Shown here: positions 47,829-56,752 of the stretch, in pieces
Layout: every line of letters starts with the position of its first letter
Numbering within the stretch: position 1 is the stretch's first letter
Assembly (NCBI RefSeq): GCF_003932495.1
Contig: NZ_QZMT01000003.1
Location: 1-64,000 of the forward strand
Length of the DNA stretch: 64,000 nt
DNA from: Guyparkeria sp. SCN-R1
GTDB taxonomy: Bacteria; Pseudomonadota; Gammaproteobacteria; Halothiobacillales; Halothiobacillaceae
Direction: 5' to 3'
Made by a program: the position numbers and the translations under genes
The notes under the pieces: generated by a model
Database searches by the model: none
Told to the model about the DNA's origin: nothing
What the model saw: only the letters and a program-made list of their open reading frames with translations

Positions 47829-49415
47829 TCATTGGTGTTCGGGCGACACGTGACGGTCGAAGGCGACTACTGACCACAGCCGGCGCGGCGTCTGCCCGAA
47901 CATGGCGGCGGCCGCAACGAACGTCACCACCCCCAGCGTGATCAGTCCGAGCACCGCGCCGACTCGTTCGAACCAGACCCAGCCGCTCCAGACCTCGGCG
48001 ACCGGGCTCACCCAGAGAAGCAAACCGGCCATGGCCAGGGCAGCGAGCGTAACGTGGCCGATGAACCGGCGCGTGCCCGCCTCCACCCGCCAGGCGCCGC
48101 GCTGGCGCAGTGTCCACCCCAGCAACAGGGCATTGACCCAGGCGGCCATCACGGTGGTCAGCGCCAGGCCCACGTGGGCGAGATTGCCGCCCAACCAGAT
48201 GATCCACGGCAGCACCAGCAGGGCCTTGAAGACCAGGTTGGCGACCACCGAGATCACGGCGATGCGCACCGGGGTCACCGTGTCCTGCCGGGCGAAAAAG
48301 CCCGGCGCGAAGATCTTGATCAGCAGGAAAGCCGGCAGGCCGAGGGCATAGGCGACCATCGCCATCGACACCATCTGGGTATCCGTGGGGGTGAACGCGC
48401 CATACTCGAACAGCGTGGCCAGGATCGGCACCGACAGGCCGATCAGCCCGGCCATCGCCGGCACGCCGATCAGCAGGGTCAGGCGCAGCGCGCCGTTGAC
48501 GGTGCGATTGTAATCCTCGTCGCTGCCCCGGGCGAACGCGCGCGACAGGGCGGGCAGGATCACCGTGCCGATCGCCACGCCGAACACACCCAACGGCAGC
48601 TCGACCAGGCGGTCGGAGTAGTACAGCCAGCTCACCGAGCCGGCCACCAGCAGGGAGGCGAGGATGGTGTCGATCAGCAGGTTGATCTGCGTGACCGAGG
48701 CACCGAACATCGCCGGCAGCATCAGCCGCAGCGTCTTTCTTACCCCGGGGTGATGACCGAACCTCGGGCGCGGCAGCAAACCAAGCCGGGCGAGGAACGG
48801 CAACAGGAAAAACAGCTGCAGGATCCCGGCGACGAACACGCCCCAAGCAAGCGCCATCACCGGCTCGTCGAACAAGGGCGCGGCGATCAGTGTCGCGGCG
48901 ATCAGGCTCAAGTTGAGCCAGATGGGCGCAAGCGCCGGCATGGCGAAGCGGCCAAAGGCGTTCAGGCTGCTGGCGACGAAGGCGGTCAGCGAGATGAACA
49001 GCAGGTAGGGAAAGGTAATCGCGAGCATCGTCTCGGCGAGCTCGAGCTGGGCCGGGTCGTCGGTGAAACCGGGGGCGAACAGCATCACCAGCAGTGGCGC
49101 GCCGGCGATTCCCAGCGCGACGACCACCGCGACGATCGCCGCCAGCGTGCCGAACATGTAGTCGACGTAGCGCTTGAGCTCCTCGCGCGTCGAGGTCTCG
49201 CGGTACTCGGACAGCACCGGCACGAACGCCTGCTGGAAGGCGCCCTCGGCGAACAGCCGGCGCAGGAAATTCGGAATCTTGAAGACGACGAAGAAGGCGT
49301 CCATCGACGCACTGGCGCCGAACACCCGCGCGAGCAGCATGTCGCGCACGAAGCCCAGCACCCGCGAGATCATCGTCATGCCGCCGAAGGCCGCGCTGCT
49401 CTTCCAGATGCTCAT
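47829..49415 (-). CDS. murJ: Lipid II flippase MurJ
   Basis: 528-residue MOP-superfamily membrane protein with about 14 transmembrane segments that moves lipid II across the inner membrane. The N-terminal SRVLGFVRDMLLARVFGAS and FAEGAFQQAFVPVLSEY are diagnostic, and the central cavity Arg residues are in FLRRLF and PRPRFG. Upstream of ribF (39 bases). Its own promoter region has been joined to the A+T-rich insert: only 65 bases separate it from the DUF262 stop, including an 8-bp inverted repeat CGACCGTT/AACGGTCG at 49435-49466. Confidence 0.96.
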   Translation of the reverse strand: MSIWKSSAAFGGMTMISRVLGFVRDMLLARVFGASASMDAFFVVFKIPNFLRRLFAEGAFQQAFVPVLSEYRETSTREELKRYVDYMFGTLAAIVAVVVALGIAGAPLLVMLFAPGFTDDPAQLELAETMLAITFPYLLFISLTAFVASSLNAFGRFAMPALAPIWLNLSLIAATLIAAPLFDEPVMALAWGVFVAGILQLFFLLPFLARLGLLPRPRFGHHPGVRKTLRLMLPAMFGASVTQINLLIDTILASLLVAGSVSWLYYSDRLVELPLGVFGVAIGTVILPALSRAFARGSDEDYNRTVNGALRLTLLIGVPAMAGLIGLSVPILATLFEYGAFTPTDTQMVSMAMVAYALGLPAFLLIKIFAPGFFARQDTVTPVRIAVISVVANLVFKALLVLPWIIWLGGNLAHVGLALTTVMAAWVNALLLGWTLRQRGAWRVEAGTRRFIGHVTLAALAMAGLLLWVSPVAEVWSGWVWFERVGAVLGLITLGVVTFVAAAAMFGQTPRRLWSVVAFDRHVSPEHQ

Positions 49416-49480
49416 CCGTAACGCCTTGAATAAGCGACCGTTTGGTGCGCCAGCGAAGAACGGTCGGCTTGATTCATTGG

Positions 49481-50491
49481 TTAACTTGCAGCATTTTGAA
49501 CTAGAGCGTAAATAGACTCGCCACGTTTGATTCTGCTACTCCTATCGTTACTCGCCTGCAACGCTGCGCTGTAATATTCCTGAGCCTCCCTATCATCCCC
49601 AGAATCTCCGGACGGAACTCGATCCACACGTGCATAAAAGTCATCTAGAAGCCCTCTCAATGCACACGCGTCAACTGCAAGGCAATTCTTGATCAATGCC
49701 CTATGAAGCTCCACAAAAAGTGTAAAGAAATCAGCCTTTTTAAAGGCTCTAGAATTGCTATTAAAATTTAATCTGTCGATAAACAAAAAAACCTCGGATA
49801 TCTCTTTATATAATTTATCCCGCCCGGGAAAATCTTCGTTGTACTTCTCTAAGTAATTTTCTAGCTCTTTATCCCTATTAAAATACGTACTAATAATAGT
49901 TATTATAAGACCCAGACAGTATCTTACATCGTTCATTCGTTTTATATCAGTGGATGTGAACACCCGGTTATCTTCAAAGATTTTACTTTGAGAAATCTCT
50001 TCGGCAAATTTCTTGAACTCACCAGCGTAACGCGAATTATGCAACTCCATTGCATTGAGGCCATAGCTTGTCGAGTTAATTCGCTTAAAAACCTCTTTAA
50101 TATCGCTCATGGGCATATTTCCCATGTCTCTAACCACTACTTTATACTCCAAGAAACCTATCTGTTTACCTTCATCAAGGTCTTTATACGCGGGTAAATT
50201 TTTACCCAGCTTTAAGTCAGGAGAGCCTTTAAAGTACTGGTACAAAGTAGTGACTCTTTGCTGGCCATCGACTAGAACTTCGGCGCCGTCTCCGGTTTTT
50301 GGATCCACTTTTCCCGCAGCAATGTATATTTCTGGAAACGGATAACCTTCAAGCACCGTTTTTATGAATTCAATCTTGTCCTTATTGGTCCAAACCAAGC
50401 GTCTCTGAAAATCCGGCTGCGGGATGAGCGTCTTGTTCCCAATAGCCGTTAACAGCACTCGAAGGCGCCTATTTGATGCTGAAGTGTCCAT
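49481..50491 (-). CDS. DUF262 family protein, putative defence effector or sensor
   Basis: 336-residue protein with the ParB/GmrS-like DUF262 domain: QPDFQRRLVW near the N-terminus, LVDGQQRVTTLYQYF (the DGQQR signature, about 80-94), and VFKRINSTSYGLNAMELHN. The C-terminal part is helical, and I see no DUF1524 HNH nuclease motif, so it is not a full GmrSD-type enzyme. Start at ATG 50491 behind AGGAGG; an upstream ATG contains that site. The start shares a base with the stop of the nucleotidyltransferase-like gene (TAATG), so the two are coupled. A+T-rich codon use unlike all neighbours indicates transfer. Function inferred from family context only. Confidence 0.8.
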   Translation of the reverse strand: MDTSASNRRLRVLLTAIGNKTLIPQPDFQRRLVWTNKDKIEFIKTVLEGYPFPEIYIAAGKVDPKTGDGAEVLVDGQQRVTTLYQYFKGSPDLKLGKNLPAYKDLDEGKQIGFLEYKVVVRDMGNMPMSDIKEVFKRINSTSYGLNAMELHNSRYAGEFKKFAEEISQSKIFEDNRVFTSTDIKRMNDVRYCLGLIITIISTYFNRDKELENYLEKYNEDFPGRDKLYKEISEVFLFIDRLNFNSNSRAFKKADFFTLFVELHRALIKNCLAVDACALRGLLDDFYARVDRVPSGDSGDDREAQEYYSAALQASNDRSSRIKRGESIYALVQNAAS

Positions 50492-51045
50492 TAAAAAGCC
50501 TCCTGAATGCATTGATCAATACAGATGGTTTGGTACTCTTGCAAGAAAAAATGAGAATGATAGAGGCCGCCTCGTATCTTATAAGGGCCAAATCGATTAC
50601 TACTGGTTAAATCATTGAAAAAGCTCCACCATTCATCAGTAAAACCAAAGTAACTACTTGGCGGGAGTTTATCCGGCCTTACCCAACCATCAGCAAGATA
50701 TTTGAAAAATCTTCCTGATGACGGCCAATCTGCACCACTCTTTTTGTAAAGGTAAGCTTCTTGCCATACACGCTCAAACAATGAGGTTGAGACAATCGCG
50801 ATATCAATGTCAGAGTCATCATTGAAAAGCCCATATCTTCTTGAAGGCTTTATACTAAATCCTAATTTTCCTGAACCAACCATCAGCACATCATTAAACT
50901 CTATTCGAAAATGCTCACAGATCACCTCTCGCAACTCAAATAAACTATGATTGTCTAGCAAATGACATCCGCCACCAAGAACGTACTTTCTATAGACTTG
51001 GAGGCTATTTAAATTTTTCAGATCAGCTTTAAACTCTTCGATCAT
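50491..51045 (-). CDS. Nucleotidyltransferase-like protein paired with DUF262
   Basis: 184 residues. MVGSGKLGFSI followed by NDDSDIDIAIVS gives the GS...DxD pattern of polymerase-beta-type nucleotidyltransferases; the third catalytic Asp is not evident. The C-terminal half is Trp/Tyr/Phe-rich (GRFFKYLADGWVRPDKLPP, SNRFGPYKIRGGLYHSH). It is first in a two-gene operon with DUF262. ATG 51045 has GGAG about 12 bases upstream; the frame is open to 51117. A+T-rich like its partner. It could modify a nucleotide, RNA or the partner protein; none is established. Confidence 0.7.
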   Translation of the reverse strand: MIEEFKADLKNLNSLQVYRKYVLGGGCHLLDNHSLFELREVICEHFRIEFNDVLMVGSGKLGFSIKPSRRYGLFNDDSDIDIAIVSTSLFERVWQEAYLYKKSGADWPSSGRFFKYLADGWVRPDKLPPSSYFGFTDEWWSFFNDLTSSNRFGPYKIRGGLYHSHFFLQEYQTICIDQCIQEAF

Positions 51046-51092
51046 TATAAGCCATCCGTCTCCTCTCAAAATCTCAAAGCTAACCAAAAATG

Positions 51093-51108
51093 GACACTTC
51101 CAAGTGTC
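51093..51108. promoter_or_regulatory. Dyad upstream of the NTase-DUF262 operon
   Basis: GACACTT, two bases, AAGTGTC: a perfect 16-base dyad centred about 55 bases before the first start codon. Its position suits an operator. No strong -10/-35 pair is visible. The rest of the gap to tesA (51109-51271) is A+T-rich at first and returns to normal composition near 51190; nothing else is recognised. Confidence 0.45.
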
Positions 51109-51271
51109 GCACAACATCCCGCCATCAACGCAGGCCCGACCTGGTTATTGATACAATTCAACCCCTTAAGCACACCATCAAGATACCTTGCAGGTGCGTT
51201 ATCAGGCGCGTCCGCGGTTTAATGCTTTAACGGCGCTGGCAGGGCACAAATGTGTGCTCCGTGAAGCGCGC

Positions 51272-55177: not shown

Positions 55178-55939
55178 CTATGGGGCTTGTTTACCGGCCT
55201 TCTCCTCATTTCGCCGCGCATCGCGAACAAAAACACCGCTTTTCCGCCGATCAAGATCGAACAGCCCAATCGTCTCGAACAGCGAACTGAGCTTCGTGTG
55301 GCCGTAATTGCGCGGATCGAAGTCATTGGCTGTCTTGCTCATGTAGCTGCCGACCGGGCTCAGATTGGCCCAACCATTCTCGTCCGACGTCGCCTCGACA
55401 GCTGCACGCGCGAGCCGCACCAGCGCCGTGTCACTCCGCAGCTCCTTGCCACCACGGGGCTTGTGCACGGGCATGACGTCCTCTTCCTCGGGCGCGGTGA
55501 ACACTTCGGTGTAGATGAAACGGTCACAGGCTGAGACGAAGGCCTTCGGTGTCTTCTTTTCGCCAATGCCAAAGACACTCAGTCCCGATTCGCGGAGCCG
55601 TGCGGCCAGGCGAGTGAAATCACTGTCGCTGGATACGATGCAGAATCCCTCGAAGCGATTCGTGTAAAGCAGGTCCATGGCATCGATGATCATTGCGCTG
55701 TCGGTGGCGTTCTTGCCGCTGGTGTAACCGAACTGTTGCATGGGCTGAATGGAATGATCCAGCAACACCGCCTTCCACTTACCCAGTCGCGGGGTGGTCC
55801 AATCGCCGTAAATCCGCTTTACGTGGGCGACGCCGATCTTGGCCACTTCGGCCATCAAGCCATCCACTATGCCCGGCTGGGCGTTGTCAGCGTCAATCAG
55901 AACAGCGAGTGAGAGGTTCGAGCCATGTCCGTTGGCCAT
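55178..55939 (-). CDS. NYN domain protein with C-terminal OST-HTH/LOTUS-like domain
   Basis: 253 residues. The PIN-like NYN nuclease core has acidic residues in VLIDADNAQPG, KNATDSAMIIDAMDLL and IVSSDSDFTRLAARLRE, giving the expected Asp constellation of a metal-dependent RNase. The C-terminal part (LVRLARAAVEATSDENGWANLSPVGSYM is split across 180-207) ends SLFETIGLFDLDR and resembles OST-HTH RNA-binding domains. Likely RNA processing or decay; targets unknown. ATG 55939 has GGAA upstream. It follows the ParA-like gene by 69 bases on the same strand. Confidence 0.85.
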   Translation of the reverse strand: MANGHGSNLSLAVLIDADNAQPGIVDGLMAEVAKIGVAHVKRIYGDWTTPRLGKWKAVLLDHSIQPMQQFGYTSGKNATDSAMIIDAMDLLYTNRFEGFCIVSSDSDFTRLAARLRESGLSVFGIGEKKTPKAFVSACDRFIYTEVFTAPEEEDVMPVHKPRGGKELRSDTALVRLARAAVEATSDENGWANLSPVGSYMSKTANDFDPRNYGHTKLSSLFETIGLFDLDRRKSGVFVRDARRNEEKAGKQAP

Positions 55940-56008
55940 GATGAATTCCTTTCTTTATCGGCCCTTTGAAGGCCCTTGCGGCATGTATGACGTGCATTCC
56001 TGCAATCA

Positions 56009-56752
56009 TCAGGCAAAGAGATCGTCGATCTCGTCCCAGAGGGCGCGGTAGGCCTGATTGGCCGGGTGGCGTGGCTCGCGGTAGACGCTGGGCTGCTGGT
56101 CCTCGCCCATCTGTTCGACAATCGAGGCGTAGGGGATCTCGCTTGAGAGCAGTTCGGGGATGTCGTGGCGATGGCGCTCGGCGAACTCGCGGTGCATGCG
56201 CCGGCGCCGATCGACCAGGGAGAGGAAGGCGCGTAGGCGTTCGGGGTGGATATGGCGCTCGTCGAGGTGGCGCTTGAGCTGGAACCAGGTGCGTTCGGAC
56301 AGGTGGGTGGGCACCATCGGCACCAGCACCATGTCGGCGGCGCGCAGCACGTTGTCCGCCAGCAGCGACAGCCCCGGCGGCGCGTCGATCCAGATTTCCT
56401 CGAACTGCTCGGCCAGCGGATCGATCAGCTTGGCCAGCCGATAGCCGGCGTCCTTCTTGTCGGCGAGATGATGCTCGATCGCCTGCTGGCCGGGCAGGGC
56501 CGGCAGCACCCAGAGGTGGTTGTGGATCGTGGGGCGCACCGAGGCGGCCAGCCCCTTGGGCTTGAGAAGCTTCTTGACCGACCGCTCCGCGCCCGCCTCC
56601 GATTGCAGGTACCACGACGCGGCGCTTTGCGGGTCGAGGTCCCAGACCAGCACACGCCGGCCGGCCGCCGCCGACAACGCCGCCAGGTTGACCGCCGCGG
56701 CGGTCTTGCCCACCCCGCCCTTGACCGAATACAGCGCCACCGTCTGGGCCAT
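56009..56752 (-). CDS. ParA/MinD-like P-loop ATPase without a ParB partner
   Basis: 247-residue deviant Walker A ATPase: YSVKGGVGKTAAAVNLA, Walker A' VWDLDPQSAASWYL, and IWIDAPPGLSLLADN as Walker B. Such proteins position DNA, clusters or machinery. No parB, centromere-like repeats or plasmid genes are adjacent, so this is an orphan chromosomal ParA. ATG 56752 has AGGAAAGG upstream; the frame is open to 56794. It precedes the NYN gene and follows ntrC on the minus strand. Confidence 0.85.
   Translation of the reverse strand: MAQTVALYSVKGGVGKTAAAVNLAALSAAAGRRVLVWDLDPQSAASWYLQSEAGAERSVKKLLKPKGLAASVRPTIHNHLWVLPALPGQQAIEHHLADKKDAGYRLAKLIDPLAEQFEEIWIDAPPGLSLLADNVLRAADMVLVPMVPTHLSERTWFQLKRHLDERHIHPERLRAFLSLVDRRRRMHREFAERHRHDIPELLSSEIPYASIVEQMGEDQQPSVYREPRHPANQAYRALWDEIDDLFA

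Follow-up and report, generated by a model that had tools for sequence, protein, structure and literature searches.

An integron gene cassette between tesA and murJ carries a conserved nucleotidyltransferase–DUF262 gene pair with a probable role in phage defence

Introduction

The closest described relatives of the locus presented here are systems built around the DUF262 domain, which in GmrSD, BrxU and SspE senses modified DNA (PMC10952713, PMC12137116) and in its GmrSD-type form carries the motifs QR, DGQQR and FxxxN (PMC12137116). Stand-alone DUF262 proteins act without DUF1524 in PD-T4-2, Menshen and Dazbog (PMC10952713). Among nucleotidyltransferases (NTases), MntA of the type VII toxin–antitoxin pair HepT/MntA transfers AMP and bears a GSX10DXD motif (PMC7641770), and NTase-fold enzymes usually have a third acidic residue, RelA/SpoT synthetases being without one of the three (PMC11646218). 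Integron cassettes are well documented as carriers of compact defence systems (PMC12409362), and cassettes can also enter genomes outside integrons at attG sites, as cited in PMC12444791 and PMC12901181.

Here we analysed a window of 64,000 nt, meaning the whole stretch of DNA examined, from Guyparkeria sp. SCN-R1. A sequence-only reading had singled out an A+T-rich insert between murJ and tesA, with an NTase-like gene coupled to a DUF262 gene, as a compact defence or toxin–antitoxin module. We find that the insert is a mobile integron gene cassette and that its two genes form a conserved pair, related in its DUF262 half to the systems above and distinct from each of them in its partner.

Results

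The insert is a single integron cassette with defined ends. Between murJ and tesA the G+C content drops sharply from about 0.67 to 0.36–0.45, as had been noticed before; the sequence-only reading missed the key fact about the insert, namely its nature as an attC-bearing integron cassette. The cassette measures 1,662 bp (49422–51083, minus strand), starts with TTAGCT at 51083, ends with the G of the attC GTT at 49422, and has a G+C content of 41% against 66% for the window. This extent, which replaces the earlier 49481–51271, follows from the attC at the right end, the GTTAGCT at the left end with crossover between G and TTAGCT, and a homology to the sister genome G751 that stops at GTTA. A second, shallower G+C dip (0.56–0.60) lies at 55200–56200 of the window.

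The attC site (71 bp, 49416–49486, minus strand) was recognized by pattern match, covariance model and folding. Directly after the DUF262 stop codon the sequence reads AGTTAACCAATGAATCAAGCCGAC...GCTTATTCAAGGCGTTACGG, a typical attC; the gapped attC pattern has this single match in the window and none in 100 shuffles, and the site folds better than its shuffles (z −2.6). Its covariance-model score of 46.7 bits is partly so by construction, since one of the 15 sites behind the model is that of the window, the other 14 coming from relatives in the family; as a positive control, the long array next to IntI in the relative G363 was recovered, with about 25 attC sites. At the left end the sequence runs TTTTTG and then, across the crossover at 51084/51083, GTTAGCTTTGAG. 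The GTTAGCT there pairs with the R'' box AGTTAAC of the attC, one of the pairs being G-T, giving a 5' end of the G-TTRRRY kind that is complementary to R'' and one base off the RRRY consensus. An identical GTTAGCT start stands ahead of the gene pair in a Shewanella locus (L002) and in L022. In L022 an attC of 35.8 bits directly follows DUF262, and in a Pseudoalteromonas integron array (L005) attC-like sites lie at the cassette joints (best 22.3 bits); the model detects no attC at the Shewanella copy.

Upstream of the cassette, the landing-site DNA (51084–51240, minus strand) has a homologous counterpart at this position in G751 (alignment score 70; highest score among shuffles 25), and this homology runs to the exact G/TTA crossover, beyond which the genes differ. 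As a candidate attI of the genus integron this DNA was rejected, having no match to the G751 intI region except a short hairpin; a short near-perfect hairpin, of the TTATGCGGCGCATCCGCCGCATAA type, occurs both beside intI in G751 (L081 6434–6468) and in the tesA–murJ landing region of that genome (L064 4019–4066). The perfect dyad GACACTT-N2-AAGTGTC described in the sequence-only reading is exact (GACACTTGGAAGTGTC, 51093–51108, minus strand) and is followed by CATTTTTGG, but it does not belong to the module: it lies on the tesA side, 9 nt outside the cassette, and we reject it as an operator of the pair given this position and the terminator-like T-run after it. By simple arithmetic, a dyad with arms of this length should arise a few times in 64 kb. 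We saw no convincing promoter within the cassette.

On the other side the cassette abuts murJ, a gene that is essential in well-studied bacteria. The GTT of the attC lies 7 nt before the murJ ATG (49415), so that, judged from the sequence, the attC is now the 5' leader of murJ. The attC arm contributes an AAGG at a distance of 8 nt from that ATG (49413–49427, minus strand), which could act as the murJ ribosome-binding site, and murJ may now depend on cassette-derived signals.

The cassette resides outside any integron. The genome has no intI above the curated cut-off (best TIGR02249 score 74 bits against 265), and the locus is thus not a complete integron with intI nearby; nor is it a CALIN of at least two clustered attC sites lacking an integrase, as the gap holds one attC and a second, weak match lies elsewhere in the genome. 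Of 27 genomes of the family, 9 have an IntI above the TIGR02249 cut-off, among them a single species of this genus. In that species IntI is found beside glyQ/glyS (gene names assigned from the sequences by eye), and in another species of the genus (L085, contig 5 of G749) an attC very like the window's lies next to glyQ, possibly as an integrase-less remnant of the genus integron. The gene that precedes this attC encodes 495 aa and weakly matches sigma-70 region 4.

The tesA–murJ gap itself is 99 bp in one species. In G269 it holds an A+T-rich insert with an attC of 59.5 bits and an AbiV-type HEPN protein (2e-44), and in G752 one with an attC of 30.2 bits and a RiboL-PSP HEPN protein (3e-29). 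Because these attC-bearing inserts recur in sister species, we regard the gap as a site where cassettes land repeatedly, several of these being defence-like. The inserts of this region differ across sister species (L059, L063, L064, L057): the RiboL-PSP HEPN insert comes with a GDSL hydrolase, the G751 gap holds a GAF-GGDEF gene, and in G753, whose contig ends before murJ, a T5orf172 (GIY-YIG) protein lies downstream of tesA. The window locus is flanked by housekeeping genes rather than a defence island. Site-specific recombination into the gap is the best explanation for the insertion, and we regard the identification of the insert as an integron cassette as almost certain.

Both genes of the cassette lie on the minus strand and share a TAATG, as first reported, the NTase stop TAA overlapping the DUF262 ATG at 50491. 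The downstream gene (49481–50491) encodes a DUF262 (GmrSD_N) protein of 336 aa with a ParB/Srx domain and an alpha-helical C-terminal half; its start (MDTS) was set from homologues, the ORF start at 50512 being too far upstream. Its identity holds (Pfam GmrSD_N, 1.4e-22), and QR (Q29, R30), DGQQR (D75–R79) and FxxxN (F135, N139) are invariant in 18 of 18 homologues. The structural model (pLDDT 86) has BrxU as its best PDB match (1.5e-4), followed by ParB/Srx proteins. In agreement with the earlier remark that no HNH motif is visible, the protein has no Pfam match to a DUF1524/HNH nuclease and its homologues share no conserved HNH pattern; a hidden HNH or HEPN in the helical half was likewise rejected, with no conserved pattern there. 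The nearest PADLOC models are NsnA (2e-30), which we take to be Menshen's, and PD-T4-2 A (3e-15). Viral contigs queried with the DUF262 protein gave nothing informative.

The upstream gene (50491–51045) encodes a predicted NTase-fold protein of 184 aa. Its start at 51045 (MIEEF) was also set from homologues; the ORF start at 51117 is too far upstream and would fall outside the inserted unit. The NTase residues noted earlier stand, GS57–58 and D79/D81 of a GSX20DXD motif being invariant in 17 homologues, and the match of the sequence to the family is weak (Pfam NTP_transf_2, 0.008, below cut-off). AlphaFold2 models the protein with a pLDDT of 94.6, and no hit of a structural search reached significance (TUT1 came first, E 0.4), the weak top matches including terminal uridylyltransferases and a poly(A) polymerase; PDB sequence searches and a viral fold search were uninformative. 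D79 and D81 are the only invariant acids, the usual third acidic residue being absent among the homologues. This does not exclude catalysis, since RelA/SpoT synthetases also lack one of the three, and the protein may instead be a non-catalytic partner. Its dN/dS is about 0.05. A CBASS assignment was rejected: the window NTase has no cyclase match (2 of 17 family members do, at 0.0095 or weaker), and there is no effector of a known type. The NTase also has no match in PADLOC, and the suspicion that no named two-gene system has this composition is borne out by PADLOC 2.0.0, in which the pair matches no named defence system.

The two genes form a conserved module whose pairing is near-obligate and far above chance. 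The neighbourhood survey suggested by the sequence-only reading supports it: at 19 of 20 NTase loci, two of them near-duplicates (L014 and L015), the next gene on the same strand encodes DUF262, with spacings from a 14-nt overlap to a 12-nt gap (17 loci measured). Loci were collected with the NTase only, except the E. coli locus, which was found with the DNA of the whole pair; matches L025 and L026 were dropped as not true relatives. None of nine control loci picked by DUF262 carries the NTase, and their nameable partners are a kinase, an AAA ATPase, an EcoRI-type methylase or a HEPN protein. At the twentieth NTase locus, on an Aliarcobacter plasmid (L118 3929–6588), a DUF4365-TPR protein follows instead of DUF262, which suggests that the NTase side can also swap partners. 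On an Asticcacaulis plasmid (L109 3441–5583), where genes for a Tn3 transposase and a recombinase lie upstream, the gene for a DUF262 protein overlaps one with a protein-kinase annotation, a possible further swap. Distances within the two families co-diverge (Mantel r 0.958, 17 pairs, 0 of 5000 permutations). Between the window and Shewanella, third codon positions are 39–52% identical and first and second positions 84–91%, so both genes are under purifying selection.

The pair travels in the mobile contexts of defence genes. It occurs on a 6.2-kb Cronobacter plasmid, in an E. coli lambdoid prophage, adjoining phage integrases (L011, L012, L024), and in P2-like prophages, where it lies between the replication gene A and the genes for portal and terminase. 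P2 itself carries tin and old in that interval. In L019 and L020 a C5-methyltransferase gene lies directly upstream, and the L019 phage contig (3387–7994) bears a larger version of the module, an operon of C5-methyltransferase, NTase, an extended DUF262 protein (502 aa) and an SRA-HNH endonuclease. In Vibrio phage L9-1 (L111 1368–6686), a C5-methyltransferase precedes a Menshen-like set near an integrase, comprising a 646-aa NsnA-like protein, an AAA ATPase and an NsnC-like protein.

Discussion

The earlier proposal of a compact module stands in its composition, a horizontally acquired ParB/GmrS-like DUF262 protein with an NTase-like partner, and its defence or toxin–antitoxin activity is best put as a prediction. 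A defence function of the pair appears quite probable from its gene content and surroundings. With slightly better than even confidence, we favour a mobile cassette carrying a two-gene phage-defence module in which a DUF262 sensor would gate an NTase effector; for the sensor–effector mechanism with a catalytic NTase, taken on its own, we see the chances as evenly balanced. The DUF262 protein would be sensor and switch, its ParB/Srx domain binding and hydrolysing NTP through DGQQR and responding to a feature carried by phage DNA or a product of it, with modified bases the likeliest cue, and its helical half would hold the NTase. Once triggered, the NTase would attach a nucleotide to a target of host or phage origin, such as a protein or the 3' end of an RNA, and so halt infection, probably with the loss of the cell. 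Extending this model, we tentatively suggest a new two-component immunity of DUF262 NTPase sensor and two-acid NTase effector, spread by attC recombination and prophages, with the tesA–murJ gap a recurrent defence-cassette landing site in the genus.

An unlikely though coherent alternative is a HepT/MntA-like toxin–antitoxin pair lacking a dedicated phage sensor, in which either an NTase antitoxin would nucleotidylate and silence DUF262, or DUF262 would restrain an NTase whose toxicity comes from blocking tRNA or translation. Integrons hold toxin–antitoxin cassettes, and the stop/start overlap, the NTase-first order, the GS...DXD motif and a weak MntA model match point the same way. AMP transfer by MntA, with its GSX10DXD motif, is a further precedent (PMC7641770). 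Against these stand the GSX20DXD spacing, the missing equivalent of the third metal ligand, an MntA model score (NF047752) of 12.7 bits against a cut-off of 60, on which we reject MntA membership, and the lack of a HEPN partner, an RX4H motif or an evident conserved tyrosine acceptor.

We consider it improbable that the pair is part of a modification-dependent restriction system, in which DUF262 would read a DNA modification, the NTase would be structural or DNA-binding, and a nuclease or methylase would act in trans or have been lost. The methyltransferases upstream in L019 and L020, the SRA-HNH gene downstream in L019, the stand-alone DUF262 genes that follow EcoRI-type methylases, and the sensing of modified DNA by GmrSD, BrxU and SspE (PMC10952713, PMC12137116) are consistent with this idea; the DUF262 homologues have no conserved nuclease motif, however, the cassette has neither methylase nor nuclease, and the pair stands alone at most loci. 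A role unrelated to phages, in stress or nucleotide metabolism and carried neutrally, is decidedly improbable: the functions of most cassettes are unknown, no promoter is evident and a GAF-GGDEF gene occupies the same gap in G751, but the strong purifying selection, the repeated carriage by prophages and beside integrases, the record of the DUF262 family, and the AbiV and HEPN genes in the gap of sister species argue otherwise. That the A+T-rich insert was delivered by another route, with a chance attC look-alike, has a negligible probability, for although the genome lacks an integrase, has a single confident attC and is matched by a Shewanella copy without a model-detectable one, the empty shuffles, the covariance score, the matching ends and the attC sites present at homologous loci and, in sister species, in this very gap all count against it.

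DUF262 proteins occur with many partners, including HNH, HEPN, OLD-type, kinase and methylase proteins, and a near-obligate NTase partner would, if true, add an enzyme class to that list. The pair offers a small, easily cloned test case for a DUF262 switch without a nuclease. The locus also shows, in a natural setting, an integron cassette lodged away from any integron and immediately ahead of murJ, a position at which other cassettes of defence type are found in sister species.

Compared with known systems, the pair shares with the type IV enzymes GmrSD, BrxU and SspE (DUF262 with DUF1524) a DUF262 protein bearing QR, DGQQR and FxxxN and a structural match to BrxU, and differs in having an NTase partner and no DUF1524/HNH nuclease. 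PD-T4-2 (DUF262 with HEPN) is likewise a two-gene system with a stand-alone DUF262 protein, and its model matches ours; the partner here is instead NTase-fold, is encoded first, and its family has no HEPN match in Pfam. Menshen contributes the nearest model, NsnA, whereas NsnB and NsnC are absent from a cassette of only two genes. HepT/MntA resembles the pair as a two-gene operon with a small Pol-beta-type NTase and a GS...DXD motif, but here the motif is GSX20DXD, the third metal ligand is missing and DUF262 takes the place of HEPN. Finally, integron defence cassettes (Darracq 2025, Kieffer 2025) were compared at the level described in the review PMC12409362; the window cassette stands alone, away from any integrase, and like them it joins an attC to compact, putatively anti-phage cargo.
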